Shown here: in pieces, positions 6,644-57,691 of the stretch | Position numbering within the stretch: position 1 is the stretch's first letter | Layout: the number at the start of each line of letters is the position of its first letter | NCBI RefSeq assembly: GCF_014651635.1 | Contig: NZ_BMXG01000022.1 | Span: 1 to 64,000 of the forward strand | DNA: 64,000 nucleotides | Direction: 5' to 3' | From: Cerasicoccus arenae | Lineage (GTDB): Bacteria; Verrucomicrobiota; Verrucomicrobiia; Opitutales; Cerasicoccaceae | Program-made: the position numbers and the translations under genes | Notes under the pieces: generated by a model | Seen by the model: the letters and a program-made list of their open reading frames with translations, nothing else | Database searches by the model: none | Told to the model about the DNA's origin: nothing

Positions 6644-6827
6644 CGCTCTATTAGCAGGCTGACCGATGGAATCGCGAGGATTCGTTTCTCTATTTTGGTA
6701 ATGAAACGATGATGGGCGCTGTATGTCATTTATTCACAGATCGCTTTCTGTTAATCTTTTTCATTTGTATTACGCCATCATTTCACTTGGCATGGTGTGC
6801 AACTTTCCGTAACCCTCACGGTTTAAG

Positions 6828-7247
6828 ATGCTGGCACAACCGCAGCCCAACCCCAGAATGACCGACATAAAAGCTCACGCAGGAAAATTTAACGCCGTCG
6901 CCGGAATTGCGGCGTTGGTCCTCGCAGCTGCGATTATTATCGTGCTGGTGATCGCCTTGAAGGGCGGTAGCACATCGCACCTTGAGCCATTTCCCACCAC
7001 GGACTATCTACAGTCTCCACAGAATTTTTTAGGTAATTCCTACCGAATCGACGCGCAAGTCGAGTCAATGCTCAGTTATCGTCCCGGTGTCGGCCGTCTG
7101 CTGGTCGTTAAGACTGATGGCCGTCCAGTGCCGGTGTTTTTGCCAGAAGGCTTGGCCGACAGTATTCACACGGGCCAACGTTACAACCTGGGCGTTAGTG
7201 TCCAGGACGGTGGCCTGATTTACATCAACGAGCTTGAGAAATATTAA
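6828..7247 (+). CDS. Small membrane-anchored protein, unknown function
   Basis: 139 residues. After a short hydrophilic start there is one strong membrane segment (about residues 23-45, rich in Ala, Val and Ile) followed by a predicted periplasmic domain of about 90 residues. That domain resembles a small beta-barrel in pattern: strands around YRIDAQVESML, RLLVVKTDGRPVPVFLPEGL and RYNLGVSVQDGGLIYINEL, reminiscent of OB-like folds that bind ligands or nucleic acid. No catalytic motif is visible. It precedes the secreted TPR-like protein by about 85 bases in the same direction and may be co-transcribed. The ATG at 6858 is an alternative start. Confidence 0.7.
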   Translation: MLAQPQPNPRMTDIKAHAGKFNAVAGIAALVLAAAIIIVLVIALKGGSTSHLEPFPTTDYLQSPQNFLGNSYRIDAQVESMLSYRPGVGRLLVVKTDGRPVPVFLPEGLADSIHTGQRYNLGVSVQDGGLIYINELEKY

Positions 7248-7333
7248 CAGTTTCCTGGTTTGAATCCAGCTGGGACAGTGGTTAGTGTGTTGGAAAGATT
7301 TTCGCCAAACCAGGATTCTTAATTAGATACGCC

Positions 7334-9322
7334 ATGAAAAAGCCAATCGCCGTTCTTGCTCTTCTGTCCACTTCTTTGCTTTTCGGACAGGCTTACGATT
7401 CATCTTCTGGCGGAGGCGGCTCACCAAATTTTTTTGGCGGAGGCGGCGGTAATGGTGGGTCTAGTGGCTCCGGCGGTTCCAGCGGCGCTGAGAACCAGAA
7501 TAACGTGATGAACGTCGGTTCCGGCGCGGGCTTATTTGAGAGCCAGACCTCGGAGAATATGGCCGACCGCGTGTTCAACGTCGACAGCGATTCAGTCAAT
7601 TTCGAAGACGGCACTTACAATTGGAAGGGCCGCACTTTTAATGTGGGCAACAACCGTGTCGCCCGCGCCCGCTTCGAGCGCTATCTAGCCACGCCCGACC
7701 TGAATACCAACGATGAGATTTATCTAGGTATCCTTCAGCGCATCGCGCAGCTCTTGTCTCTCGTTGGCGAAGATAATATGAAGGACACAGCAACGCTGTC
7801 CGACGAAGTCTTTCAAGCCTGGCAAATGCTTTTTAAGGCCGCACGTTATGAAATGGACCAAGGCATTTCCATTACCGTGGCCAATCAAGTTTACAATGTC
7901 TGGCGTATTCGTGACGAAAACACCAGCCTGACGCGAGCACGTCAACTGATGGACGAAGAGATGGAAGATGCACAAGGGCAGTTACTCTCACAGAGCGCCC
8001 AAGAGGAATATGAGCATGAGCAGCGGCAGCGTTTGAAATCTGAAGGTCGCCATACGGGCCAAGCTTATGAGGGCGTAACGGACACAACTTTTGGTGCTCA
8101 AAAGTTGGTCAATATTCAAACCCAGATGGCCGCGATGGAGACGCTGAAAGTCGCTAATGGCCAAGTTGCCAAGCTTCAGTTCCAATCGCAGATTGTAAAC
8201 CTGCTTCTAACGCGCCGTTTTGAGCATTGCATGATCGCATCGCAGTTTTACCGCTTTGCCTTCAAAGGCTCTCACCAGACGATCACTGTGGGTGGTGAGG
8301 AGTTGGGCGCATTTTTGCCGGTATCCGACTTTACTCCAACGGTTGAAACCGTGGAGTTGCTCGCCCGTGAGGCTCAGGCTGACGTGCGCATTGGCATGAA
8401 GACGGTGGATAGCCTTTACGCCAGCAACGAGCTTTTTGGTGCATTGGAACGCCTTCAGGAGACCTTCTTTCTGGGTGAATACGAACCGGATGTACTCCAG
8501 TTCCCCGCCGAGAAAAAGCGTAAGCTGCTCGATCTTTATCGGAAAACCCGCGAGCTCCAAGTACTCATCGACCACAAAGACTATGAAGGCATTGAGCGTG
8601 TGACCGCTGAGGCCAAGGAACTGGCTTATGATTTTCCCGCTTCGCAAGTGCTTTCCGGAGTGCAGTCAGTCCAGCGAATGAGCAATCTGTCCTTAATGGC
8701 TGCTCGCCAAGCCGTAGGGCAGGGCGATTTCGCCAAAGCTGAGACCATGCTGGAGCGCGCTACTGGCCTCTGGCCGCAGAACCCCGCAATTCGGTCATAT
8801 ATGTCTGATATGGCCGACAAGGCGGATGTGGGCACGCAAGCCTCGGTCATGTTCGATGAGATGTATAACCGCAAGGACTACCGCGCCATTTATACAGAAA
8901 GCGCCAACTTCAGCGGCGCACTTATTAATGACTCCGTTCGTCGAGAAAAACTCAAGGAAGCCGTGGACAAAATTGCCCGCGTGGACTTCCTCATTGTCGG
9001 TGCCCAAGAGTTGGACGGGCAGGGGAATTCATACGCCGCATGGGAGATTCTCGCCGACGCAGAAAAGATCTATGCCGACGACTACGTTCTTGCCCGTGCC
9101 CAGGCTAAACTAGCCCCGCGAGTCGCTGATTTTGTGGGCGCACTGGATCGCGCCGAACAAGCAGAAGCAAAAGGTCAATTCGCCCTGAGCCTGACACGCT
9201 ATCTTGAGGCCAAAGAAATCTATCCGACGTCCAAAATTAGCCATCATGGCATCGAGCAAATGAGCGAGAAGGTCATGGATGGTATCCGCCCACCAGCAAA
9301 AGCCGCGCCTTCTGACAGCTAG
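7334..9322 (+). CDS. Secreted Gly-rich, TPR-like helical protein
   Basis: 662 residues with a clean signal peptide (MKKPIAVLALLSTSLLFGQA) followed by a Gly/Ser-rich linker (about residues 25-55) and then a long, mostly helical body. The C-terminal third has degenerate tetratricopeptide-like pairs, for example QGDFAKAETMLERATGLWPQNP and KGQFALSLTRYLEAKEIYPTS. No enzyme motif is visible. Such proteins occur in envelope-associated clusters of Opitutae; this is a family impression, not a match. It follows the small membrane protein and precedes tRNA-Ser, after which the accessory region starts. Start codon is secure because of the signal peptide. Confidence 0.75.
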   Translation: MKKPIAVLALLSTSLLFGQAYDSSSGGGGSPNFFGGGGGNGGSSGSGGSSGAENQNNVMNVGSGAGLFESQTSENMADRVFNVDSDSVNFEDGTYNWKGRTFNVGNNRVARARFERYLATPDLNTNDEIYLGILQRIAQLLSLVGEDNMKDTATLSDEVFQAWQMLFKAARYEMDQGISITVANQVYNVWRIRDENTSLTRARQLMDEEMEDAQGQLLSQSAQEEYEHEQRQRLKSEGRHTGQAYEGVTDTTFGAQKLVNIQTQMAAMETLKVANGQVAKLQFQSQIVNLLLTRRFEHCMIASQFYRFAFKGSHQTITVGGEELGAFLPVSDFTPTVETVELLAREAQADVRIGMKTVDSLYASNELFGALERLQETFFLGEYEPDVLQFPAEKKRKLLDLYRKTRELQVLIDHKDYEGIERVTAEAKELAYDFPASQVLSGVQSVQRMSNLSLMAARQAVGQGDFAKAETMLERATGLWPQNPAIRSYMSDMADKADVGTQASVMFDEMYNRKDYRAIYTESANFSGALINDSVRREKLKEAVDKIARVDFLIVGAQELDGQGNSYAAWEILADAEKIYADDYVLARAQAKLAPRVADFVGALDRAEQAEAKGQFALSLTRYLEAKEIYPTSKISHHGIEQMSEKVMDGIRPPAKAAPSDS

Positions 9323-9447
9323 TTGGCACGTGTTGGCCAAGTTCTATTTGGAACATACGAAAAAATCTTGCAGGCTTTTTCTTATACGGGCTTGACGGAG
9401 CGATGATGCTTTAGCATACACAACCCTTTGACTTTGCCAGTCAGCAA

Positions 9448-9537
<90 letters not shown>

Positions 9538-9625
9538 AATTCCTCTAAGTTATTGGCAGCCAGCGCCAAGCCTTTTAAACAAAGGGATTCAGGCTTGAGT
9601 GTTACACAAAACCTATGTGGAACAC

Positions 9626-10027
9626 ATGCCAAAGCGACCAGACGGCCTAGTAAATCGAAAAGGCAGCAAAATCTTTTATTGCCGTAAGCGGGTGCCGGAG
9701 AAATTGGTTCCAATTATCGGGCGGAAGAAGTTCATGGTTTCTCTGAAAACCGCCGATTACCAAGAAGCAAAGCGAAAGCTGCGTTCAGTTAAATTCGAGA
9801 TCGAGCAGAAGATCGACGCCGCAGAGCAAAAGTTGGAAAGGTCAAAGTCCGCACAGCCTACCGCGCTACTCGATGAGGAAGTCAAGGCCATGGCCATAGA
9901 TTGGTTCATTAAGCATGAACAAGACTTGGATCGTAAATACCGAAACCTACAGCCCAAAAATATCGGAGCAGCTGTTGATGGCCTAAGGGCGAATTTGGAA
10001 GGACAGCCATGCACTGGCAAGATGTAG
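9626..10027 (+). pseudogene. N-terminal remnant of a tyrosine recombinase
   Basis: About 133 residues starting MPKRPDGLVNRKGSKIFYCR. The opening NRKGSKIFYCRKRVPEKL with FMVSLKTADYQEAKRKL is typical of the arm-binding N-terminal region of phage-type integrases (the RKGSxYYFRRRVP style). The frame stops at 10025-10027 long before any catalytic domain, and no Arg-His-Arg-Tyr motifs follow, so only the N-terminal third survives. It starts about 90 bases after the 3' end of tRNA-Ser(GGA), the usual place for an integrase of an element inserted there. An earlier ATG at 9599 exists but the family pattern favours 9626. Confidence 0.75.
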
Positions 10028-10136
10028 ATGCACCCTTAATTGAGGTAAGCTTTTTCGACTTTTGGGAAACCGTCTGGCAGACATAAACTGCGGCGATGCG
10101 CTGTTGTCATGGTTTTGGGTTAAGTTCCTTCGCTTT

Positions 10137-10148
10137 TGCCTGACAGTC
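10137..10148 (-). promoter_or_regulatory. Inverted copy of the GACTGTCAGGCA site before lacI-type gene
   Basis: On the minus strand this reads GACTGTCAGGCA and continues AA, identical over 13 bases to sites at 11318 and 12260 ahead of two PEP-CTERM genes. It ends 15 bases before the ATG at 10164. Position fits an autoregulatory operator for the LacI-type protein; the assignment is inference from repetition and placement. Confidence 0.5.
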
Positions 10149-10163
10149 CGTTTTTTGTGAGCT

Positions 10164-11237
10164 ATGGTTCCTCTCATGGGACGACCGAGCACAGGTATTA
10201 CAGTCCGCGAACTGGCACGGTTGGCGGGGGTTTCGCGGCAGACAGTATCGGATGCCTTGCGGGGCACCGGGCGAGTGGCCGCCGCCACGCAAAAACGGAT
10301 CCGCGAACTGGCGGAAGAATTCAGATACGCGCCAGATCCGCTCATTTCGGCGGGATTGGCCCAGATACGCCGCAAGAGTCCGCAGCGAACCAAGGCGGTT
10401 CTAGGTTACGTGGAAACGGGCAGCACTCCAGACCTTACCGGGATCCACGAATCCTACCGCAGGCTCTATCAGGGAGCTCAGGAGCGGGCGGAGAATCTTG
10501 GCTATCTGCTCGAGCGGTTTTCGATTGCGGATCCAAACATCAAACCGAAAGGTCTGCAGAAGATACTTTTCGCACGGGGAATCCGAGGCTTGGTCATCCT
10601 CTATATTGACGACTGGAACAAAGATCCGGCTCCGCTTCCACTCGATCTCAACCAATTCGCGGCAGCCACCATCGGTGCTCGTCTGCGAACTCCGGCCCTC
10701 CACTTCGCGATGGCTGACGAGTTCGCCAACACGCAACTCTGCATTCAATATCTGACCGATCTCGGCTACCAACGGATCGGCCTCGCCCTTCCGAGTCCGC
10801 TGGACCGCTTGATTGAGAACCGGATCAGCCATGCCTACTACGGGTGGCAACAGTCGAAGTCGGCGGGAGTGCGTTTGCCTGTGTTCGACAACCGGGTGAC
10901 CCAGTTCGAAAGCACTGCCAACGCTTATCGTAGCTGGATCGACAGATGGAAGCCGGACGCCATTATGTCCTTCCCTCAGGGGCGATTGAACCGCCATCTC
11001 GGACTCCGCTTTCCCGAGCAGGCCGGCTTCGTCCACCTCGACCGCAACCCATCGAATTCCGGCATCGCCGGGATCGATCAAAAACACGAGGCCACCGGAG
11101 CCGCCGCAGTGGACATCGTTGCCAGACTCCTCGCCCTCGGCGAAATCGGACCTCCCTCCACCGCCCACGGCACCCTGATCGAAGGGCGATGGGTTGCCGG
11201 GGCCACTGTCGAAGAGCAGGGCCGAGCCTCGAAGTGA
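10164..11237 (+). CDS. LacI-family transcriptional regulator
   Basis: 357 residues. N-terminal helix-turn-helix: TVRELARLAGVSRQTVSDAL, then RGTGRVAAATQKRIRELAEEF with the hinge-side helix. A periplasmic-binding-protein-like sensor domain follows. The domain is shorter on conserved sugar-contact motifs than classical LacI, so the effector is unknown; carbohydrate is the usual case. ATG at 10164 has a weak GAG upstream, while ATG at 10176 (MGRPSTG) is an alternative. It is the first intact gene in the accessory region and is followed in the same direction by two PEP-CTERM genes that carry the same 13-base site found before this gene, so it is a good candidate for their regulator. Confidence 0.85.
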   Translation: MVPLMGRPSTGITVRELARLAGVSRQTVSDALRGTGRVAAATQKRIRELAEEFRYAPDPLISAGLAQIRRKSPQRTKAVLGYVETGSTPDLTGIHESYRRLYQGAQERAENLGYLLERFSIADPNIKPKGLQKILFARGIRGLVILYIDDWNKDPAPLPLDLNQFAAATIGARLRTPALHFAMADEFANTQLCIQYLTDLGYQRIGLALPSPLDRLIENRISHAYYGWQQSKSAGVRLPVFDNRVTQFESTANAYRSWIDRWKPDAIMSFPQGRLNRHLGLRFPEQAGFVHLDRNPSNSGIAGIDQKHEATGAAAVDIVARLLALGEIGPPSTAHGTLIEGRWVAGATVEEQGRASK

Positions 11238-11317
11238 AATGTACTGCAACCTGACCGGTCGCGTCGTCTTTTGTCCGGCGTGATTCCAGAGGTGACGGGA
11301 GCACACTATGGCTGGCT

Positions 11318-11410
11318 GACTGTCAGGCAATTGTTTGATATTAATATGCTTCCAAATTCGCGCTTTGTTACTAAACTACTAAATTCGTTTAGATCTGCTG
11401 CCAAAAAGAA
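11318..11410 (+). promoter_or_regulatory. Shared upstream leader, copy 1
   Basis: Begins with GACTGTCAGGCAATT, 113 bases before the ATG of the first PEP-CTERM gene. It then shares CGCTTTGTT-CTAA about 43 bases further on and CTGCCAAAAA-type sequence near the start with copy 2 at 12260. Matching order and spacing show that the whole promoter and untranslated leader was duplicated. Function as promoter and operator is inferred. Confidence 0.6.
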
Positions 11411-11430
11411 CTCTAAAGAGGATAATCCCT

Positions 11431-12174
11431 ATGAAAATCATTAGAACGCTCCCAGCCATTGCCGTTTTGCTTGCTACCGCCTCCACCAATGCGGTGGTTC
11501 TTGGCTACTCGAACAACTTCTCCACCAGCGTTGCGGACTTCACCGAAACCACCGATGTGCAGTGGACGCTTGGCAGCGGTGTGTACACCAATGCATTTAC
11601 AGCAGGCGGTGCCACTGCCTCGAGCGCCACGGTTAACGTAACCGACTTGGGACCAGTCGGCACCGACTGGTCCATTTCCACAACTTTTTCGATCTCGACG
11701 TTGGAGTCGGGTATGACGTTCGGGTTCGGTGCGCTCGGGACTAACACGGCCTTCAGCGGGGGCGCTGGAAATCCGTATTACCTCGCGGATGTCAACACTG
11801 CAGGATCGGTGCGAATTCTTGAGATTGCCTCCTCACCCGCGGACCTCGGCGGCACCAAGACGAGCCTCCCTGATGGCGGGCTGCAGACCGACACCAATTA
11901 CACGATGACTCTCTCGGGAACCTACTCGGGAGGCACACTTACAATGGATCTCAGCATTACCGACGGCGTGAATATCGGATCTGTCATCGGCGCAACGGAC
12001 GCCTCGTCCCTGACAGGCCAGAATTTCGGTTTTCGTAATCGGATTCCAAACGCCGGAACTTACAGTGTCAGCTACGACAATTTCAGCATCGTCCCCGAAC
12101 CGGGGAGTGCAGCACTGATTATGTCTGCCTGTGTCGGAATGCTGCTGATGATGCGCCGTCGTCGCCGCGCATGA
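11431..12174 (+). CDS. PEP-CTERM sorting-domain protein (first of a pair)
   Basis: 247 residues. Signal peptide at 1-22 (MKIIRTLPAIAVLLATASTNA), then a beta-rich domain with a LamG-like or choice-of-anchor style pattern, and a C-terminal sorting signal: VPEPGSAALIMS, a hydrophobic segment, then MRRRRRRA. Such proteins are recognised by exosortase and displayed on or released from the surface, often in exopolysaccharide contexts; no exosortase gene is in this window. The body is unrelated to the neighbouring PEP-CTERM protein although leader, tail coding and 3' flank match. Substrate or partner is unknown. Confidence 0.88.
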   Translation: MKIIRTLPAIAVLLATASTNAVVLGYSNNFSTSVADFTETTDVQWTLGSGVYTNAFTAGGATASSATVNVTDLGPVGTDWSISTTFSISTLESGMTFGFGALGTNTAFSGGAGNPYYLADVNTAGSVRILEIASSPADLGGTKTSLPDGGLQTDTNYTMTLSGTYSGGTLTMDLSITDGVNIGSVIGATDASSLTGQNFGFRNRIPNAGTYSVSYDNFSIVPEPGSAALIMSACVGMLLMMRRRRRA

Positions 12175-12201
12175 CTGGTTCAGACACGATTTTTGGGTTG
12201 C

Positions 12202-12239
12202 GCCGGCGGCAGGCGACTCGTTCTTCTGCCGGCTTTTTT
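12202..12239 (+). terminator. Rho-independent terminator after first PEP-CTERM gene
   Basis: GCCGGC at 12202-12207 pairs with GCCGGC at 12228-12233, followed directly by TTTTTT. The 34 bases at 12174-12207 are identical to 13218-13251 after the second PEP-CTERM gene. Confidence 0.75.
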
Positions 12240-12259
12240 ATGGTTTAGCGTGCATGACG

Positions 12260-12350
12260 GACTGTCAGGCAATTCTCCATGGCAATAAGATTTCAAATTT
12301 TCGCTTTGTTGCTAACATTTCGAATCAGTTAAAAAATCTGCCGCCAAAAA
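12260..12350 (+). promoter_or_regulatory. Shared upstream leader, copy 2
   Basis: Starts with the same GACTGTCAGGCAATT as the leader at 11318 and keeps the CGCTTTGTT-CTAA block 42 bases later and the CTGCCGCCAAAAA block near its end. It begins 116 bases before the ATG of the second PEP-CTERM gene. Likely promoter plus operator; inferred from repetition. Confidence 0.6.
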
Positions 12351-12375
12351 ACAATCACTAAAATCAACACCCCTT

Positions 12376-13218
12376 ATGAATATCACACACAAATCCCTCG
12401 TCATTGCCGCAGTCTCTTGCGCACTCACTCAGTCTAGTTCTGCAGAACTGCTGTCTTATTGGAATTTCAACAATATCGATCCCGTCTATAATAGCGGCAC
12501 GCTCGGTTCCTTCGACATTGACGCTGCTGCCTACGGCGAGGCCTACTCACAAGTTGACAACGCGACTCCCGGCACTCTCGCCAGTAATACCAGCAACAGC
12601 ACAGTATTTAACGGTGCTGGCATCAACATAGACTTCGCCAATATAGCAACGATTGCCAATGCCACTATCAACGGCAAAGCGGCGACGTCCTATACCAGTC
12701 AAAATATTACTGGCGGCAACGCTGGTTATGGTGTGTTTACAGACTCCACGTTAAATCGCGTTGGCACTGACTCCACAACCGGCGGCTCCCTCATTTTCTT
12801 GAATCCTTCGGCTAATATGAACGGCAAATACATCACCCTTTCGCTAAGCAGCGTGGGGTATGACACGCTCTCCTTGACTTATGCCACACGCCGTACCTCT
12901 GGCATGAATGCCAGAGATGTCTGGACATATAGCACTGATGGCATCGTCTTCAGTGACCTCTCTACCCCTGGCTACACCAACGGTACTAGCAGTTTCGCGA
13001 CCACGACATTGAATATCTCAACGCTCAGCTCCAACGTCCTCGACAATCAATCTACCTTCTACCTCCGTTTGAATTTTGATTCTTCAAGTACCACCGGGAG
13101 CTACGCCTATGACAATATCCAGTTGACTGGCAGTACCATCCCCGAGCCGACGACTGCAGCACTGTTTATGGCTTGCAGTGCCGGGGGGGTGCTGCTGCGC
13201 CGTCGCCGCCGCGCATAA
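12376..13218 (+). CDS. PEP-CTERM sorting-domain protein (second of a pair)
   Basis: 280 residues with signal peptide MNITHKSLVIAAVSCALTQ, Asn/Thr/Ser-rich beta-type body beginning ELLSYWNFNN, and C-terminal sorting signal IPEPTTAALFMA, hydrophobic segment and LLRRRRRRA. Predicted to be an exosortase substrate on the cell surface. The SYWNFNN opening is common in verrucomicrobial and planctomycetal PEP-CTERM proteins. The last codons and the 34 bases after them match the first PEP-CTERM gene, but the body does not, which suggests a conserved expression and sorting frame around different passengers. Confidence 0.88.
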   Translation: MNITHKSLVIAAVSCALTQSSSAELLSYWNFNNIDPVYNSGTLGSFDIDAAAYGEAYSQVDNATPGTLASNTSNSTVFNGAGINIDFANIATIANATINGKAATSYTSQNITGGNAGYGVFTDSTLNRVGTDSTTGGSLIFLNPSANMNGKYITLSLSSVGYDTLSLTYATRRTSGMNARDVWTYSTDGIVFSDLSTPGYTNGTSSFATTTLNISTLSSNVLDNQSTFYLRLNFDSSSTTGSYAYDNIQLTGSTIPEPTTAALFMACSAGGVLLRRRRRA

Positions 13219-50321: not shown

Positions 50322-50335
50322 CCAATACGAATTGG
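50322..50335. promoter_or_regulatory. Candidate LacI operator upstream of the second LacI gene
   Basis: CCAATACGAATTGG, ending 15 bases before the ATG at 50350. Outer arms CCAAT and ATTGG pair; centre is ACGA. It matches the sites at 51494 and 52320 (CCAATACG core), so the LacI protein probably controls its own gene. Inferred. Confidence 0.6.
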
Positions 50336-50349
50336 GTCATGCTTTTTAA

Positions 50350-51411
50350 ATGGCATCCGAGCAGTTAAAAGATAGAAAAAAGAAGGGCGAAATTCTTTCT
50401 GCTGCAGATTTGGCCCGTCATTTGAATATTTCCCAGTGGTCGATTTCCAGAGCAATCAACGGCCATAAGGATGTCAGTGAGGACACTCGGGAACGTGTTC
50501 GGAAGGCGATGGAGGAATATGGCTTTCAGCCTAATCTCTACGCGCGTGGCTTGCGTGGAAGAGAGACGGGCATGATCGGCGTCTGTTTTCCACGACATGG
50601 TGTTCCAATTATTGGGCAGAAGATTTCCGAATTACAGATGTTTCTGAAAGAGAAAAACTATCGCTGCCTTTTCGAATCAACCATGAACCGTGCGGATGTT
50701 GAAGCCAACGCGGTTAAGGATTTTCTGAATCTCAAAGTCGAGGGAATCGTGACGATTCAATCGCAACTGATGCCTGCGGATTTGTCCCCATTACTGGAAA
50801 AGAAAGATACGCCCTGCGTCATGATAGACCCAGTGCAAGAAGGACACATCTGCCCGAGCGTTTCATTGGATCGACATAAGGCGATGGCTTTATTGATGGG
50901 GCATTTATGGGAGTTGGGGCATCGGCGTTTTGCTTTGATGGGATTTGGCCCCCGCGATGGCTGGCGGTGGCCGCCCTTGGTGGATTTTGCTGCCAAGCAT
51001 GGTCTGAGTGCCGATGAGGTCTTTGTCAGCCTTCCTAAGAAAAAGGCTGATGATAGCTTTGTGGTCGCTGGCGTAGAATTGACTGAGCAATTGTTGCAAA
51101 TGAAGCCCGCAGAGCGCCCGATGGCATTGATTTGTTTAGACGATTTGGTGGCGCTGGGAGTTGTCCAAAGTTTGCATCGAGCTGGATATTCGGTGCCGAA
51201 TGATTTTTCTGTGACAGGTTTCAATAATCAGGACATTGCCCAGTGCCTTTTCCCGCGACTGACGACAATAGACCAGCACCCTGAATTACTGATGGAGCAG
51301 GTAAGCAGTTTGTTGATCAGTCAGATTAAGAACTGTGGCGGTGAGGATGCTGATACTGTCCTCGTCGAGCCGCAATTAGTGGTGGGGGAATCTACTGGTC
51401 CGGTGCATTAG
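50350..51411 (+). CDS. LacI-family transcriptional regulator
   Basis: 353 residues. Helix-turn-helix SAADLARHLNISQWSISRAI with NGHKDVSEDTRERVRKAMEE and GFQPNLYARGLRGRETGMIG, then a periplasmic-binding-protein-like sensor domain (SVSLDRHKAMALLMGHLWEL, LICLDDLVALGVVQSLHRAG, NDFSVTGFNNQDIAQCLFPR, LTTIDQHPELLMEQVSSLLI). Full length. Effector unknown, probably a sugar released by the downstream enzymes. Three dyad sites with the same core lie before this gene, before the PEP-CTERM gene and inside the beta-helix gene, marking its likely regulon. Same direction as all genes to 57691. Confidence 0.93.
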   Translation: MASEQLKDRKKKGEILSAADLARHLNISQWSISRAINGHKDVSEDTRERVRKAMEEYGFQPNLYARGLRGRETGMIGVCFPRHGVPIIGQKISELQMFLKEKNYRCLFESTMNRADVEANAVKDFLNLKVEGIVTIQSQLMPADLSPLLEKKDTPCVMIDPVQEGHICPSVSLDRHKAMALLMGHLWELGHRRFALMGFGPRDGWRWPPLVDFAAKHGLSADEVFVSLPKKKADDSFVVAGVELTEQLLQMKPAERPMALICLDDLVALGVVQSLHRAGYSVPNDFSVTGFNNQDIAQCLFPRLTTIDQHPELLMEQVSSLLISQIKNCGGEDADTVLVEPQLVVGESTGPVH

Positions 51412-51493: not shown

Positions 51494-51509
51494 CCCAATA
51501 CGTATTAGG
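51494..51509. promoter_or_regulatory. Candidate LacI operator before the PEP-CTERM gene
   Basis: CCCAATACGTATTAGG, a 16-base dyad with 7 of 8 pairs matching and central C-G as in classical LacI operators. It lies 48 bases before the ATG at 51558. Shares the CCAATACG core with the two other sites. Confidence 0.65.
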
Positions 51510-51557: not shown

Positions 51558-52235
51558 ATGAAAAACATGCTCAAACTACCCATTGTCTGTTCCATTATCT
51601 TTGTTGCTCAGGCAGCAATTGCAGAAACCGTTGTCGACGTTTCTCCTACAGCGCCGGATACAAATATCGAAGCAAGCTTCACCAGCGGTACCGCTAGTGG
51701 CTACCAATGGCGGGACAATGAGAACAGTCGTCGCGACTTGGGCCAATCATTTTTGGCTGATAGTTCTTTCACTTTAGATGCATTTTCTTTTTCTGCGCTT
51801 GGTAATGTGCAGGCAGGAGCTTCTGGCGCTAGTTTCGATGTAAAGATTTTCGAGAGTGATAATATCTCTTTAATCGGTAGTGCGATTTCAACCCAAAGCG
51901 GCACCTACCTCACTTCAGGTAGTAATCCTGTTAGTGGAAATTGGATTGTTTTTGATTTAGAGGATGTTGCTTTAACGGCGGGAAATTATTACACGATCGT
52001 GTTGTCATGGGATAGTGCTGGTGTCCAGGACCAGGATCAGGTTTTTGGAATGGTTTCTGGCAACTTGTATGGGGATGGCTCGGCTTGGGAGTCGTCAGAT
52101 GGCGTCAACTTTTCGAGTTTAGGTGGAGACCTACAGTTTACAGTACAGTCGATCCCTGAGCCCAGCACTGTGGCGCTTTTCCTTGGAGTCGTTGCTATTT
52201 CTGTTGTAGCTCGTCAACGCCGGAACCGTAAGTAG
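51558..52235 (+). CDS. PEP-CTERM sorting-domain protein with a domain shared by its neighbour
   Basis: 225 residues. Signal peptide (MKNMLKLPIVCSIIFVAQAA) and C-terminal sorting signal: IPEPSTVALFLGVVAISVV then RQRRNRK. The body (about 30-190) is a beta-type domain opening ASGYQWRDNENSRRDLGQSF with AGNYYTIVLSW; the same domain is found in the middle of the large beta-helix protein encoded next. Surface-displayed protein, probably an exosortase substrate, in a sugar-responsive cluster. May present or bind the cluster's substrate; that is inference. Confidence 0.85.
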   Translation: MKNMLKLPIVCSIIFVAQAAIAETVVDVSPTAPDTNIEASFTSGTASGYQWRDNENSRRDLGQSFLADSSFTLDAFSFSALGNVQAGASGASFDVKIFESDNISLIGSAISTQSGTYLTSGSNPVSGNWIVFDLEDVALTAGNYYTIVLSWDSAGVQDQDQVFGMVSGNLYGDGSAWESSDGVNFSSLGGDLQFTVQSIPEPSTVALFLGVVAISVVARQRRNRK

Positions 52236-52243
52236 GTTCCGGC
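52219..52243 (+). terminator. Hairpin at the end of the PEP-CTERM gene, weak terminator or attenuator
   Basis: GCCGGAACC at 52219-52227 pairs perfectly with GGTTCCGGC at 52235-52243, spanning the stop codon, and is followed only by TTTA. With the beta-helix gene starting 28 bases later it may reduce rather than end transcription. Confidence 0.6.
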
Positions 52244-52270
52244 TTTAGCCCCAATATTTATCCCAATTGT

Positions 52271-55200
52271 ATGTCTGTTTATCGATGCTTTGTGCAGGTG
52301 GCTTGTGCCGCCTTATTAACCCAATACGTGTTAGGTAGTCAAGTGGAGACTAATTCGTTGTCGACGTTGCAAATGCTACAGCCTGGCCAACCTGCAGAAG
52401 TTAATTTGGCTGCTGGCGACTATGTCTTACCTAAAGAAGGGTTGCTTTTGAAGAACCTTGAGGGCGTTACAATTAATGCAGAAGGAGTGCGGCTCCTTGC
52501 GTCGAACCCTGTGGGTAGCGCCTTAATTATTCGGAATTGTAAGAACCTGACGATTCGAGGGCTTACGGTGGATTACAATCCGTTGCCATTCACTCAGGGC
52601 ACCATTACGGCGGTGGACCGGGAGGCGCTAACTGCCGATATTGCCATCCATGATGGGTATCCTGATCTGACTGAAGATTACTTGGTCCGTCGGGCGCATC
52701 TCTTTGAAAAAGACCGTCATCTCTGGAAGGCGGGTGCTCCAGATTATTATCTGAGTAAAAACGAGCGTTTGGATGCGAGGCATTGCCGCTTACATTTCCA
52801 AAAGGGCGAAACGGCCTTTCATTATGTTGAAGTAGGTGATCGGATAGTGATGAATATCCGAAAGGCTGCGGCCATACAGGTGCGAGATAATTCCGAAGGG
52901 CTGCATCTAGAGGATTGCACGATTCATGCGGGTCCGGGCTTGGGCTTGCTTGTGCGTTTTGCTAAAGATGGAGGCACTTATGAGCGTTTGCGCGTGCTTC
53001 CAGGGCCATTGCCTGAAGGTGCCACTGAGCCGCGCCTTCTTTCGACTTGTGCGGATGCAGTCAACATTGCGTATACGCGTAAGGGTCCTATTATCAGTGA
53101 ATGCGAATTTGCTTACATGGGGGATGACTCGGTGAACCTGCATGGTGCGACGCTTCCGGTTTTAGCATGGGAAGACGAGAAGACGTGCCTATCGATGCGA
53201 CCGTTCGGGGATGATCCCTTTGAGGACTTATTACAGGAGGGAGATGTAGTCCGATTTCTTCAAGAGCCAGATTTTTCACTGATTAGGACTTCAGAAATAG
53301 AGAGTATTGAGCGTGCCAACGAGCCCTTCGAAAAATGGGAATCAAAGATGCGCGAAATATGGCCAAGCTATCGGAAATCGAAGAACGCTACATTTTACCG
53401 AATACGATTCAAGGACGCGATTTCTGATGTCCCTGCTGGAATTTCTTTTTGTGAGTTCCATGCTAGTTCGGCTTCAGGCTTCGTGATTAAAGATTCCTAT
53501 TTCCACGACCACCGTGCACGCGGACTTCGTTTGATGAGCAATGACGGTTTGATCGAGAACAACCGATTCGAACGTCTCAAGGGGGCTGCCATTAGTGCCG
53601 GCCCAGAATTTGCTTATTGGAAAGAGGCGGGTTGGGTCCACGATTTGACTATCCGAGGCAATACTATTACGGATGTGGGGCTCGGCGCGCATCAGCTTTA
53701 TGAAGAGAGCTACACGCTCGGTGCCATCTCCTTATTTACTCATGTATTGCCGATGGGGATGGCTTCACGTTACTATCAAGGAAATGACAATATTTTGATT
53801 GAGGACAACGTTATTGATGGATGTTCGATGGACGGTATCAGTATTGTGGCGAGTAAAAATGTCGTCATACGCAATAACGAGATATCCAATGTGAATCTAA
53901 TCGATGCGGGAGATGCGGGTCGCGATTATGGTTTGAAAGCTGGACAGGCCATTTCAATTATCCAGTCGGAAGCGTTGATTGAAAATAACACGATCCATGT
54001 GGCTCCTCCAAAATTTGAATCTAAGGCTATCGTGCCTGATGTGGATACGGCTAGTAATGTGAGCCAAGAGATGTTAACTCTCTCGACAAGCGTGATGGTT
54101 GGGAACCCCAAAGTTGACGGGAGTCATCTAGTGAACGCTGAATTAGAAGGGGCCAATGGCTTTCGCTTCTATTGGATCGAAAATGAAGGACGTCGTGCCC
54201 TTGGGCAACAATTCAAGGTCAGCAAAAAGACTAAAATCTCTCAGCTCGCTTTAAAAATAAATTCTGCGACTCGTAATCTGGATACGAACAGCTTGTTCTC
54301 GTTGACTTTTGCGCGGACGAAGAACGGGAGCGCCCAGCCTGGTGAGATTTTGGCTAGTTACGTTGGTTTAATTCCAGATGAGGACGAAAAGCTAGATAGT
54401 CGAACATGGCTATATCTCACGTTTGCAGAGTTGGAATTGAAGCCTGGAGATTATTGCTTTTATGTGAATTTTAATGCCGCTGGTCAGGCTGGCCGCTCGC
54501 TTGTGCTGAGTGTTGGGGCCAAGAATGACACGTATGAGGGCGGTAGGGGGATTTTTGCTAATGATGGTCCTTTGGGGACTTGGGAGTATTCTCGTCCGCT
54601 TCACTTTGTTTTGTCAGATTCCGCGAACTTACAGCCTGCGGTGCCCGAACAGGCTGCAGTATCTCGACGGATTTTGAATGTGGATTCAAATGGCGGTGGA
54701 GATTACACGAGTTTGGCCGATGCATGCAGGGACGTTCAACCTGGGGATGTTATTCGTATTGAACCGGGCAGTGGCCCATATCGTGAGCCACTCTTTATTA
54801 AGAGGTCTGGCCGAAAGGATGCACCGATCGTTGTTGAGGGAAGCGGAGAGACTGTTACTGGTTTTGATCCTCTTGAGGGTTTCAGAAAAGAGGGCGATCA
54901 TTATGTGTGCGATATTGCGCAGGAGTTTCCGTTTGTTCTCGTTTTCAAAGGTGAGCGTCTGCTACAGGATGCGCTGACTGGGCAATTTACCAAGTATGCG
55001 CGCTTGTCTGAGGATAATAAAAGCCTAGAGCTTTTACCCGGAGTTTCTCCAGATGGCTGGGAGATTTCCACACGTTATTTTGTGGTGCGAATTGAAAATG
55101 CGTCTCATCAAGTTTTTCGCAATCTGAAAGCGACTGGCGCGCTCAACGATGGTTTCAATTTGCATGGGAAGGGGCAGGGGCTCGTCTTTGAAAACATAGA

Positions 55201-55615
55201 AGCTTTTCAGAATTTGGACGAAGGTTTTTCAGCGCACGATCAAATGCAATGTGAAATTAGCGATGGAGTCTTTTATGGAAACGACAATGGGGTCGGCAAC
55301 GTTGCTGACAGCGAGATGTCAGCAACGCGATTGAAGATATACGACAATTTGGGCTATGGGCTTTGGCTGAGTAACTGCCGTGCGGTGCTTAGCGATATTC
55401 AGGCATGGGATAACGGAATTTCCCAGATTCGCTTCTCCGGCAACGTCAATGTCGAAGTCGATGGAGTTGTTGCCTACGACGTGCCATGGAAAGCTCGACA
55501 ATGGGTCAGTTACAAAGAGTCAGCCAAAGCATCATCCCTGGCAGCAGTTGCGATGGATAGAAAAGTTCAATTAGTTGGCGAACAACCAGTGCTTCGCTCA
55601 AGGGAAAGCCTTTAG
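52271..55615 (+). CDS. Large secreted protein with two parallel beta-helix domains (GH110-like)
   Basis: 1114 residues with a signal peptide (about 1-22). First beta-helix (about 30-585): GVTINAEGVRLLASN, NLTIRGLTVDYN, ADAVNIAYTRKGP, YMGDDSVNLHG and HDHRARGLRLMSNDGLIENN with GAAISAGPEFAYWKEAGWVH. These are like GH110 alpha-1,3-galactosidases, though assignment within beta-helix enzymes is tentative. Residues about 597-785 are a beta domain shared with the preceding PEP-CTERM protein. The second beta-helix (about 795-1090) begins ILNVDSNGGGDYTSLADACR and has GFNLHGKGQGLVFENIEA. Likely an extracellular glycosidase or lyase. A candidate LacI operator lies inside the 5' coding end (52320-52335). 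Confidence 0.75.
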   Translation: MSVYRCFVQVACAALLTQYVLGSQVETNSLSTLQMLQPGQPAEVNLAAGDYVLPKEGLLLKNLEGVTINAEGVRLLASNPVGSALIIRNCKNLTIRGLTVDYNPLPFTQGTITAVDREALTADIAIHDGYPDLTEDYLVRRAHLFEKDRHLWKAGAPDYYLSKNERLDARHCRLHFQKGETAFHYVEVGDRIVMNIRKAAAIQVRDNSEGLHLEDCTIHAGPGLGLLVRFAKDGGTYERLRVLPGPLPEGATEPRLLSTCADAVNIAYTRKGPIISECEFAYMGDDSVNLHGATLPVLAWEDEKTCLSMRPFGDDPFEDLLQEGDVVRFLQEPDFSLIRTSEIESIERANEPFEKWESKMREIWPSYRKSKNATFYRIRFKDAISDVPAGISFCEFHASSASGFVIKDSYFHDHRARGLRLMSNDGLIENNRFERLKGAAISAGPEFAYWKEAGWVHDLTIRGNTITDVGLGAHQLYEESYTLGAISLFTHVLPMGMASRYYQGNDNILIEDNVIDGCSMDGISIVASKNVVIRNNEISNVNLIDAGDAGRDYGLKAGQAISIIQSEALIENNTIHVAPPKFESKAIVPDVDTASNVSQEMLTLSTSVMVGNPKVDGSHLVNAELEGANGFRFYWIENEGRRALGQQFKVSKKTKISQLALKINSATRNLDTNSLFSLTFARTKNGSAQPGEILASYVGLIPDEDEKLDSRTWLYLTFAELELKPGDYCFYVNFNAAGQAGRSLVLSVGAKNDTYEGGRGIFANDGPLGTWEYSRPLHFVLSDSANLQPAVPEQAAVSRRILNVDSNGGGDYTSLADACRDVQPGDVIRIEPGSGPYREPLFIKRSGRKDAPIVVEGSGETVTGFDPLEGFRKEGDHYVCDIAQEFPFVLVFKGERLLQDALTGQFTKYARLSEDNKSLELLPGVSPDGWEISTRYFVVRIENASHQVFRNLKATGALNDGFNLHGKGQGLVFENIEAFQNLDEGFSAHDQMQCEISDGVFYGNDNGVGNVADSEMSATRLKIYDNLGYGLWLSNCRAVLSDIQAWDNGISQIRFSGNVNVEVDGVVAYDVPWKARQWVSYKESAKASSLAAVAMDRKVQLVGEQPVLRSRESL
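52320..52335. promoter_or_regulatory. Candidate LacI operator inside the beta-helix gene
   Basis: CCCAATACGTGTTAGG, differing at one base from the site at 51494, and flanked by GTA on both copies (18-base match with one change). It sits 50 bases after the ATG at 52271. An intragenic site could block elongation or loop with the upstream operators, 826 bases apart. Inferred. Confidence 0.5.
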
Positions 55616-55617
55616 CC

Positions 55618-56259
55618 ATGCATCTTTCTAGTAAGCACAGATCGAGAGGATTTTCACTCCTTGAATTGCTTGTTGCTATTGCGGTGATTGCCATTCTGTC
55701 GGGTTTGTTGATGGTGACGCTAGGACGGACTCGCACGGCAGCAGACAACGTGAAATGCGTCAATAACCTCAGGCAGTTGGGGGGCGCATTACGTATGTAT
55801 GCAAATGAGAACAAGGGTTTTCTGCCTAAGCCAACGGATAATTATCTTAACAAAAATGCGACTTCGGTTTCCTGGATGATCGTTACCGGCGATTACATGA
55901 ATATGCCTTTTCCCAAAACAAATCAGGATACTTTTTTTCTGTGCCCTGAAGCTATGAATACATATCCAGATGGAAATGCACGCCGTACTTATGCGATGAA
56001 TGCAGCGGGTACGGATTCGAAAACGGCGATGAATCTTTTGGTCTTTGAGAATCCCGTTTCCACCGCTTTGCTCTATGATAGTGCTTCATCAAGTTCGATT
56101 GATGGTTATGCGGTGTTCGGCATCAACTCTTTCGAGAAGAATGTTGAATGGAGGCATAACCATGGCACAAATGTACTGATGATCGATGGCCATGTTGAAC
56201 ATGTCTCCGAGGATGATATAGATCAGCTCGAATTATACGTCAGAAATTTCATATACTAA
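55618..56259 (+). CDS. Prepilin-type (DUF1559/GspG-like) pseudopilin
   Basis: 213 residues. N-terminal prepilin signal RGFSLLELLVAIAVIAILSG: basic head, Gly-Phe cleavage site, Glu5 of the mature protein (FSLLE) and hydrophobic helix. Then NVKCVNNLRQLGGALRMYAN, typical of DUF1559-type pseudopilins in Planctomycetes and Verrucomicrobia, and the C-terminal H-x9-D-G type motif WRHNHGTNVLMIDGHVEHV. Would be cleaved by a PilD peptidase and fit type II-like or type IV machinery. Its place directly between two catabolic genes suggests that it is part of the same export or surface system. It starts three bases after the beta-helix gene ends. Confidence 0.85.
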   Translation: MHLSSKHRSRGFSLLELLVAIAVIAILSGLLMVTLGRTRTAADNVKCVNNLRQLGGALRMYANENKGFLPKPTDNYLNKNATSVSWMIVTGDYMNMPFPKTNQDTFFLCPEAMNTYPDGNARRTYAMNAAGTDSKTAMNLLVFENPVSTALLYDSASSSSIDGYAVFGINSFEKNVEWRHNHGTNVLMIDGHVEHVSEDDIDQLELYVRNFIY

Positions 56260-56269
56260 GGATCAAATT

Positions 56270-57691
56270 GTGAGTAATGTTTCAATAGAAGAGGGTGCAG
56301 CATCAGTGGCTGTCGGAACTGATAACAATAAAAAAGGTTTAGGCTTAAAACGCTTTGCCTATGTGGGAACGGGGAGTCGTGTTCGGACTTTTCTGGATCC
56401 AGTTGCTCGGGACTACAAAGAAGACAGTGAAATCGTTGGCTTGTGTGATACTAGCCTTGTTCGAGCTAACTACCATCAGAAGCGCTTGAGAGATTTGTAT
56501 GACTATAAAAATGTCCCAGTGTACCATGCGTCCGAATTTTGCACCATGCTCAAGGAATTGCGTCCGGATAAGGTCGTGGTTTGCACAATCGACCGAGAGC
56601 ACGACTATTACATTAAAGCGAGTTTAGAGGCAGGCTGCGATGTGATCACTGAGAAGCCGATGACAGTCGATGCCACAAAGTGCCAGGCGATTATGGATAC
56701 GATAGCCGCGAGCCATGGACGTAGCGTTCAAGTTGCTTTTAACTATAGATGGTCTCCTGCTGCAACTAAGGTAAAAGAAGTGTTGGATTCTGGCGTGATC
56801 GGAAAGGTCCATCAAGTAAACCTAGAGTATTTGCTGAACACCAGTCACGGTGCAGACTATTTTAGACGTTGGCACTCCTACAAGAAAGACTCAGGGGGCT
56901 TACTTGTCCATAAATCGACTCATCATTTCGATCTTGTGAACTGGTGGATTGACGGAATACCAGAGGCTGTTTTTGCCCATGGTAATCTTTCTTTTTACGG
57001 GCGTGATAATGCAATTAAGCGAGGTGATGGTAAGTACACCGAATACCCGCGATATCATGGTATTGTCGGGCATGAGGATCCGTTTGCTTTCTTATATGAA
57101 GACCTTTGCGACGATGACATTTACAATCGGCACCTGTATTTAGAGGCAGAGAAAGAGAGCGGTTACCAGCGTGATCAAAATGTATTTCGAGACGGTATCG
57201 ACATCGAGGATACTATGAATGTCATGGTCCGCTACCGACACGGTCCTTTGCTAAACTACAGTCTGAATGCATACAGCCCCGATGAAGGCTACCGTGTCTC
57301 CTTTATGGGTGACCGCGGTCGCATCGAATTTGAGGAAAAGCACGGAGCACATATCTTGAACGATGATGGTAGCAAGAAGCAGGTGGATGAGCATGCCCAT
57401 GCAGGTGGCCATCGGCTTGTGGTACATCCTCATTTTAAAGCTGCTTATGACGTCGAAATCGAGCATGCGGAGGGTGGGCACGGTGGTGCTGACCCGCTCT
57501 TGCAAGCGCAGTTGTTTGCCAAAGATCCGCCAAAGGACCCCTTCGGCCGCCACGCAGGTCATGAGCAGGGTGCGGCATCGATTCTGATCGGAATTGCTGC
57601 CAATCAAAGTATGATCCACGAAAAGCAGGTGCGGTTACTTGATCTCGCGAATCTACGCCCAGATGCGAGCCATCTTTCTGAGCTAATTTAG
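56270..57691 (+). CDS. Gfo/Idh/MocA-family NAD(P)-dependent oxidoreductase
   Basis: 473 residues, starting with GTG. N-terminal nucleotide-binding fold with FAYVGTGSRVRTFLDPVARD and VVCTIDREHDYYIKASLEAG, then the family signature CDVITEKPMTVDATKCQAI, where Lys of EKP is catalytic. The C-terminal substrate domain has VNLEYLLNTSHGADYFRRWH and KSTHHFDLVNWWIDGIPEAV with His residues typical of the active site. Likely cytoplasmic, acting on a sugar or sugar acid released by the upstream enzyme; GH109 glycosidases share the fold, so a redox glycosidase is an alternative. Last gene of the LacI cluster, 10 bases after the pseudopilin. Confidence 0.85.
   Translation: MSNVSIEEGAASVAVGTDNNKKGLGLKRFAYVGTGSRVRTFLDPVARDYKEDSEIVGLCDTSLVRANYHQKRLRDLYDYKNVPVYHASEFCTMLKELRPDKVVVCTIDREHDYYIKASLEAGCDVITEKPMTVDATKCQAIMDTIAASHGRSVQVAFNYRWSPAATKVKEVLDSGVIGKVHQVNLEYLLNTSHGADYFRRWHSYKKDSGGLLVHKSTHHFDLVNWWIDGIPEAVFAHGNLSFYGRDNAIKRGDGKYTEYPRYHGIVGHEDPFAFLYEDLCDDDIYNRHLYLEAEKESGYQRDQNVFRDGIDIEDTMNVMVRYRHGPLLNYSLNAYSPDEGYRVSFMGDRGRIEFEEKHGAHILNDDGSKKQVDEHAHAGGHRLVVHPHFKAAYDVEIEHAEGGHGGADPLLQAQLFAKDPPKDPFGRHAGHEQGAASILIGIAANQSMIHEKQVRLLDLANLRPDASHLSELI

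Follow-up and report, generated by a model that had tools for sequence, protein, structure and literature searches.

In the 64,000-nucleotide stretch of Cerasicoccus arenae analysed here (NZ_BMXG01000022.1, positions 1 to 64,000; called the window below), a cluster on the forward strand encodes a LacI-type regulator, a PEP-CTERM protein, a 1114-aa beta-helix protein, a prepilin-type/H-X9-DG protein, and a Gfo/Idh/MocA oxidoreductase. We show that the body of the PEP-CTERM protein and a segment of the beta-helix protein are two copies of one unit of about 170 residues, an all-beta, lectin-like accessory domain of secreted proteins, both copies belonging to one family and one predicted fold class. 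We suggest, with a probability of about 0.5, that this unit is a module like a carbohydrate-binding module (CBM), which brings the anchored PEP-CTERM protein and the enzyme together on a single galactose-containing polymer. The features concerned are the following.

51558..52235, forward strand: PEP-CTERM surface-type protein, 225 aa, with copy 1 of the shared domain as its body (TIGR02595)
51636..52154, forward strand: copy 1 of the shared lectin-like domain (P); profile E-value 1.6e-53 with its own sequence in the profile, and hhalign of P against M rows
52149..52223, forward strand: PEP-CTERM sorting signal (PEP motif, hydrophobic stretch, basic end); PF07589 at residues 198-222, TIGR02595 at residues 199-222
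52271..55615, forward strand: fusion protein, 1114 aa, with a GH110-like beta-helix, the shared domain and a second beta-helix; two genes in the related loci L018, L019 and L020
52271..53989, forward strand: GH110-like part with Asp262, Asp285 and Asp286 (Asp spacing 23); PDB phmmer match to 8pvs
54095..54631, forward strand: copy 2 of the shared lectin-like domain (M), aa 609-787 of the fusion protein (hhalign)
54191..54196, forward strand: Arg641-Arg642 of the fusion protein, in 9/9 rows of both copies and in 1/30 and 6/30 other family rows
54407..54409, forward strand: Trp713 of the fusion protein, in 8/9 rows of both copies and 0/30 other family rows
54665..55612, forward strand: second right-handed beta-helix; Pfam Beta_helix below cut-off in the separate L018 and L019 counterparts

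A domain shared by two neighbouring proteins

An earlier note on this DNA had proposed that the PEP-CTERM body and the segment between the beta-helices share a domain, which our results bear out. Of the sequences it quoted, both present in the translations, GYQWRDNENSRRDLGQSF...AGNYYTIVLSW belongs to the product of 51558-52235 (225 aa) and FRFYWIENEGRRALGQQF...PGDYCFYVNFN to that of 52271-55615 (1114 aa). Pairwise BLASTP between the two proteins gives a weak match (19% identity over 148 aa, E-value 0.054). Together with their counterparts, the window copies make a set of four PEP-CTERM bodies and five beta-helix-protein domains, and these nine rows fall in one collinear MAFFT alignment. When the four bodies are compared with the five enzyme copies by hhalign, the probability is 98.3% (E-value 1.8e-14, 155 columns) and the score 93.7, against 25.3 for the best of 200 column shuffles and 10.9 for the reversed alignment. 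The match is domain-wide, since it survives the masking of the RRxxGQxF region in both groups (96.0%, E-value 4e-9, 135 columns). The profile match of copy 2 (54089-54622, E-value 5e-53, with its own sequence in the profile) has an end that fits the one given by the earlier note.

Six other PEP-CTERM or secreted pairs score only 12.8 to 22.6 against the enzyme profile. Among 99 single PEP-CTERM bodies, a set without the L019 counterpart, scores over 50 are confined to the window, L018 and L020, the next being 25.6. A chance resemblance of the copies is ruled out by the shuffles, the reversal, the motif masking and the other PEP-CTERM controls. Both copy groups have Arg641-Arg642, Gly699 and Trp713, which 30 other rows of the family seldom or never have, while GQxF and Tyr728 are present in nearly the whole family.

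The domain has no model of its own in Pfam or NCBIfam. NCBIfam models do not reach their cut-offs on the domain in ten members, and with Pfam none of seventeen members has a match over cut-off, the hits being a weak one to DUF4082 and others at chance level. The DUF4082 hit (PF13313; E-value 0.0014, 19.0 bits, cut-off 28.4) concerns 1 of the 17 members, the PEP-CTERM body of L019 (5361-5924). The other 16, both window copies included, have no match to it up to an E-value of 1, and the window's genome has none at 10; DUF4082 is possibly a distant kin of the shared domain. A profile search of the PDB gave four matches, the best with an E-value of 0.29.

Both copies are predicted to consist of nearly all strands. 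The copy 2 model, made from eight rows, has a pLDDT of 77.1 and a pTM of 0.82, and is not independent of copy 1, its alignment rows being drawn from both copy groups; the copy 1 model, for which only the four PEP-CTERM rows were used, has a low confidence (pLDDT 59.4, pTM 0.65). Different folds, which the earlier note had named as evidence against a shared domain, did not appear: with mixed rows behind the copy 2 model and a pLDDT of 59 for copy 1, the two have the same leading structural neighbours. The first is a baseplate domain of the staphylococcal phage phi812 (9eui, Z 15.2 and 12.1 with the two models), ahead of the lectin-like domain of Cwp84 (4d59), which gives Z 12.1 for copy 2 (3.1 A over 149 residues) and 10.3 for copy 1 (3.2 A over 146). 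The tail tip of Bxb1 (Z 12.8 and 10.1), PHR domains (3no8, Z 9.7 and 8.3), and the CBMs 7zvo, 7tok and 2w46 (Z 5.1-8.3) are also found.

Carriers of the domain and its history

The shared domain occurs in at least 11 of 273 genomes of the order and at least 12 of 387 genomes of a phylum sample, both lower bounds, as at most 12 (order) and 9 (phylum sample) candidates were scored per genome. Pfam identifies as carriers sulfatases (L052, L089, L090), a DUF5060/PKD protein (L105), a small PEP-CTERM protein (L104) and, with the domain at the C-terminus, a GH10-GH43 protein (L057) as well as a GH43 protein (L106). In L099 and L097, the domain is near the N-terminus of proteins with Big/cadherin or PKD repeats; the carriers in L050, L093, L098 and L100 were assigned by similar sequence alone or have no Pfam match. 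A scan of genome contigs gave three named loci of the cluster (JAUIHT010000004.1, JAUTCS010000066.1 and JAUTCS010000027.1), from Verrucomicrobiia or Verrucomicrobiota. Since the domain rides on sulfatases and glycoside hydrolases and no Pfam or NCBIfam model is over cut-off, it may be a new glycan-binding module.

The diversity of these carriers (sulfatases, GH10-GH43, GH43, Big or PKD repeat proteins, PEP-CTERM proteins) would also suit a domain that fastens secreted proteins to the producer itself, in its surface layer, lipopolysaccharide or slime, whatever their substrate. We regard such an attachment to the own surface as quite unlikely: the PEP-CTERM copy already owns an anchor signal, and the presence of the domain is patchy at the frequencies given above.

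The position of the domain between two beta-helices in the window is the result of a gene fusion that trapped the N-terminal domain of the second protein. In L018, L019 and L020, the GH110-like protein and a protein made of the shared domain and the second beta-helix are encoded by separate neighbouring genes, directly preceded by a PEP-CTERM gene with its own domain copy. The domain order in the window, which the earlier note had described as different between the two proteins, derives from the fusion, the domain being N-terminal in these three relatives. A second full-length fused gene is found in the same genome (L017, C9; 6858-10118), pairing with the window in the domain tree (96/90) and in the GH110 tree (96/97). 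An adjacent PEP-CTERM gene with its own copy is present in 4 of the 5 full-length loci with a domain-bearing enzyme (window, L018, L019 and L020; not L017). In L163, which is the third copy in the same genome, and in L164 and L166, both beta-helix proteins are adjacent and the shared domain is missing.

In the GH110 tree, the five full-length domain-bearing loci form one group (100/99). They are not one group in the tree of the second beta-helix (2 changes) because L168 falls among them. In this locus (1-500), at a contig edge and adjacent to a transposase-like frame, the frame of the second beta-helix opens with the tail of the shared domain, which has probably been cut or interrupted, rather than being absent. 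A tree of 39 domains puts the enzyme copies in one group (100/99) and the PEP-CTERM copies in another (92/87), with the same branching order in both for the loci that have both copies. Judged by these trees, both copies are inherited together in these loci. The earlier note had the domain moving as a unit: this is true at the family level, where it lies near N-termini, at C-termini or inside different secreted proteins, whereas a recent move inside this locus is unsupported, the loci branching alike in both copy types. When the P and M groups are held as sisters, p-AU is 0.313, and 0.123 without four long rows, so that a sister relationship is neither shown nor rejected.

The putative enzyme, its proposed surface partner and a possible common ligand

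Sequence comparison shows that the first part of the fusion protein is related to the GH110 alpha-1,3-galactosidases and retains the catalytic aspartates. It matches solved GH110 structures in a phmmer search of the PDB (E-value 5.3e-14 to 8pvs and 1.3e-7 to 7jw4), and Asp262, Asp285 and Asp286 align with Asp-321, Asp-344 and Asp-345 of PdGH110B. The trio is also seen when the GH110-like counterpart of L018 is aligned to 7jw4, and is present with a spacing of 23 in 11 of 11 relatives (8 by a first pattern; L017, L166 and L167 by a relaxed one). According to the available text on PdGH110B, Asp-344 is likely the general acid, and the water may be activated by Asp-321, by Asp-345 or by both (PMC7939477). 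We infer an alpha-1,3-galactosidase activity for this part. Relatives of the second beta-helix are found in 15 of 273 genomes of the order, and its L018 counterpart has no PDB sequence relative at an E-value of 1.

The C-terminal signal of the 225-aa protein passes the TIGR02595 cut-off (20.1 bits, cut-off 16) and lies under that of PF07589 (17.2 bits, cut-off 20.7). The genome has 5 matches over cut-off to the exosortase model PF09721 and 45 matches to the PEP-CTERM signal at an E-value of 0.01. Ten PEP-CTERM-type NCBIfam models are listed for the whole protein, only TIGR02595 being above cut-off; two others, floc_PepA (E-value 2.8e-10, 40.4 of 80 bits) and FxDxF (E-value 1.2e-7, 32.1 of 50 bits), extend below cut-off over the body. 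Without the signal, the body has no NCBIfam match up to an E-value of 1, so it was the tail that carried the floc_PepA and FxDxF matches. To our knowledge, a task is known for few PEP-CTERM proteins. Two more PEP-CTERM genes, neighbours of each other, are present in the window at 11383-12171 and 12316-13215.

In the CBM-like reading, an exosortase would fix the PEP-CTERM protein, with copy 1 as its whole body, in the cell envelope. Copy 2 would be exported as part of the cluster's beta-helix proteins, whose GH110-like first part is the putative enzyme. Both copies would attach to a single galactose-containing polymer, at the same part of it or at adjacent ones, perhaps through Arg641-Arg642 and Trp713, the first candidates for binding-site residues. 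The cell might in this way hold the polymer at its surface during the work of the enzyme, and the released sugar would stay close.

We favour this reading because the copies are homologous, have the same leading fold neighbours and are accompanied by an adjacent PEP-CTERM copy in 4 of 5 loci; because the family rides on sulfatases, GH10-GH43 and GH43 proteins, the usual place of binding modules; because the Arg-Arg pair and the Trp, seldom or never seen in the 30 other rows, are common to both copies; because the Asp trio is found in 11 of 11 relatives and the GH4 protein of L019 scores best, though below cut-off, with an alpha-galactosidase model; and because another domain is shared by an enzyme and its PEP-CTERM neighbour in L165 (see below). 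The fold class and the carriage by glycan-active enzymes point toward a common sugar ligand.

Several observations weigh on the other side. The copies are only about 17-22% identical to each other, and a ligand is known for none of the family members. The nearest structural neighbours are phage baseplate proteins with unstated ligand. As far as the available text of PMC4089489 goes, the Cwp84 domain is without a shown ligand and without the usual carbohydrate-binding region, and its fold relatives include PHR-type E3 ligases that do not bind sugar. The carriers act on quite different substrates, which makes a single sugar for the whole family unlikely. No PEP-CTERM gene with the shared domain was found near L017. 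Finally, L163, L164 and L166 keep the aspartates and are missing the domain, so the domain is probably not needed for the reaction.

PEP-CTERM neighbours are frequent around these clusters, and what stands out is the sharing of their bodies. We surveyed 99 PEP-CTERM proteins from 67 loci with a strict motif and BLASTP, whose reach falls short of pairs as divergent as that of the window. At an E-value of 1e-3, the body is common to a motif-less neighbour in 5 of the 99, L165 included, and 4 of the 99 match another locus of the same genome; two of these four matches link L165 to L199 and L020 to the enzyme copy of L019. A recognised large enzyme is found among the five sharing neighbours only in L165, the others being small or unassigned, one of them (L223) with 666 aa. 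Repeat-rich PEP-CTERM-like proteins with variant motifs (PEA, PES) are encoded in L163 (14433-15569), L164 (10232-11368), L167 (13980-15050) and L017 (4380-5405). Among frames over 320 aa of the listed loci, their bodies match only themselves or each other at an E-value of 0.1, those of L163 and L164 being about 58% identical proteins.

The survey bears on another explanation, that the domain is a structural spacer, a secreted beta-sandwich reused by chance, with no joint function of the copies. The sharing of PEP-CTERM bodies with motif-less neighbours in 5 of 99 cases would suit it, as would the P and M groups, which are not shown to be sisters, though not rejected as such. We find it improbable, since only L165 among those five has a recognised large enzyme as partner, and since both copies persist jointly in four loci with residues mostly lacking in the rest of the family.

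L165 belongs to another family of the order. It encodes two proteins in which the second beta-helix precedes the GH110-like part (5508-8906 and 9889-13149), and a PEP-CTERM gene, its body encoded within 8990-9889 on the minus strand, lies between both fused genes. The body of this PEP-CTERM protein matches the C-terminal extension of one of the fused proteins (5508-8888, minus strand) with 31% identity over 222 aa (82 bits; E-value 2e-22 against six pieces and 3.1e-17 among 1027 open reading frames). It has a further match about 11 kb off, to a 251-aa protein in L199 (E-value 4.6e-17). The L165 domain and the window domain are not detectably related, hhalign giving 2.05% against copy 1 and 0.19% against copy 2; an unfiltered hmmsearch gave 2.7 bits and an E-value of 0.009 for two sequences, and a very distant kinship may exist. 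That the fusion arose in both orders suggests that the two beta-helix proteins act together, and that L165 shares a different domain between its enzyme and its PEP-CTERM neighbour suggests that the sharing itself is selected. An accessory domain of the enzyme recurs in the PEP-CTERM neighbour at 5 of 6 loci (window, L018, L019, L020 and L165; not L017), which, the loci being few and partly related, is a lead rather than a statistic.

The L165 pair fits a pairing of proteins as well as a common ligand. The copies might bind each other or a common partner, the anchored PEP-CTERM protein being a surface dock for the enzyme. The fusion of the beta-helix parts in both orders, by which the assembly of the parts matters, also speaks for docking, and a precedent is given by IFT25, of the same general fold, which, in the available text, binds its protein partner via the region that binds sugar in relatives (PMC4089489). 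We nevertheless hold docking to be unlikely: sulfatases and xylanase-type proteins, whose loci may or may not hold an anchored partner, also carry the family, any interface is hypothetical, and L017 is without an adjacent domain-bearing partner.

More broadly, the PEP-CTERM proteins of such clusters might be dedicated surface partners of the secreted enzymes of their clusters, matched to them by the same accessory domain, which would be swapped as in L165. We advance this idea tentatively and consider it doubtful. If true, the accessory domains would amount to an exchangeable recognition code through which exosortase-sorted proteins keep extracellular glycan enzymes on the cell, and a function would emerge for some members of the large, unexplained PEP-CTERM class. 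A body domain shared with a glycan-enzyme-like neighbour, in two not detectably related versions, gives a concrete and testable task, that of the surface partner of a secreted enzyme. Our literature search found no paper combining PEP-CTERM and GH110; the shared-domain arrangement was not searched for otherwise.

Among known systems, the lectin-like domain of Cwp84 (PF18560) resembles the window domain in fold class and in its accessory role on a surface protein, but its carrier is a cysteine protease, unlike the carriers found here. It is called putative carbohydrate-binding, with bound calcium, in the available text (PMC4089489). PF18560 has no match in the window's genome at an E-value of 10, nor in any of the 17 members of the domain family up to 1. 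CBM35-, CBM6- and CBM32-like modules and the CBM of the AcXE esterases are, like the window domain, non-catalytic beta-sandwiches on glycan-active enzymes, although Z values of 5.1-8.3 may reflect a mere common arrangement. CBM families outside the lists of structural neighbours may be similar too. As in CBMs, the window domain is discrete and occurs on GH110-like, GH43, GH10-GH43 and sulfatase proteins, its architecture suggesting that it is non-catalytic; no CBM model in Pfam or NCBIfam matches it up to an E-value of 1. PdGH110B and other GH110 members share sequence and the Asp trio with the window protein, which differs by its fusion to the domain and a second beta-helix. The signal and the exosortases are those of other PEP-CTERM/exosortase proteins, while a body also found on the neighbouring enzyme is uncommon in our survey. 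In cohesin-dockerin and SusD-like systems, a surface protein keeps a secreted enzyme or a glycan at the cell. The window differs from them in that both partners bear the same domain, the comparison being one of idea and not of sequence.

Operator-like sites and neighbouring genes

The remaining genes of the cluster and three palindromes are the following.

50322-50336, no strand: LacI-operator-like palindrome before the LacI gene, 2 mismatches to CCAATACGTATTAGG
50350..51411, forward strand: LacI-family regulator, first gene of the cluster (Pfam LacI 1.1e-10, Peripla_BP_3 3.2e-30)
51495..51509, no strand: LacI-operator-like palindrome CCAATACGTATTAGG between the regulator and the PEP-CTERM gene, 0 mismatches
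52321..52335, no strand: palindrome in the first, signal-peptide-like codons (TQYVLGS) of the fusion gene, 1 mismatch
55618..56259, forward strand: prepilin-type/H-X9-DG-CTERM protein (TIGR02532 28.4 bits, TIGR04294 20.6 bits, both over cut-off)
56270..57691, forward strand: Gfo/Idh/MocA oxidoreductase (Pfam)

With up to 3 mismatches, the palindrome has 6 strand matches against 0.84 expected (0 of 100 shuffles). The site between the regulator and the PEP-CTERM gene recurs in L019 (1 mismatch) and L018 (2 mismatches). The intragenic site, which recalls the second operator within the coding region of the lac system, is kept in L019, and L018 has the variant AATTCGAATT at both last places. In L017, the same palindrome (0 mismatches) is found at 10212, upstream of the fused gene, so that one regulator probably serves both fused genes. 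The last four genes of the cluster look like one transcription unit, because they are separated by gaps of only 35, 2 and 10 bases.

L163 and L164 appear to have a prepilin-like and then a Gfo/Idh/MocA-like gene, as in the window, and a Gfo/Idh/MocA-type gene is the end of the cluster in all three. At this position, a GH4-type gene is found in L018 (4329-5756, by similar sequence) and L019 (10103-11527, by Pfam). The top-scoring model for the GH4 protein of L019 is an alpha-galactosidase model (323.7 bits, below the model's cut-off of 486). Gfo/Idh/MocA-type and GH4-type enzymes both use NAD, and the two genes may replace each other at the end of the cluster.

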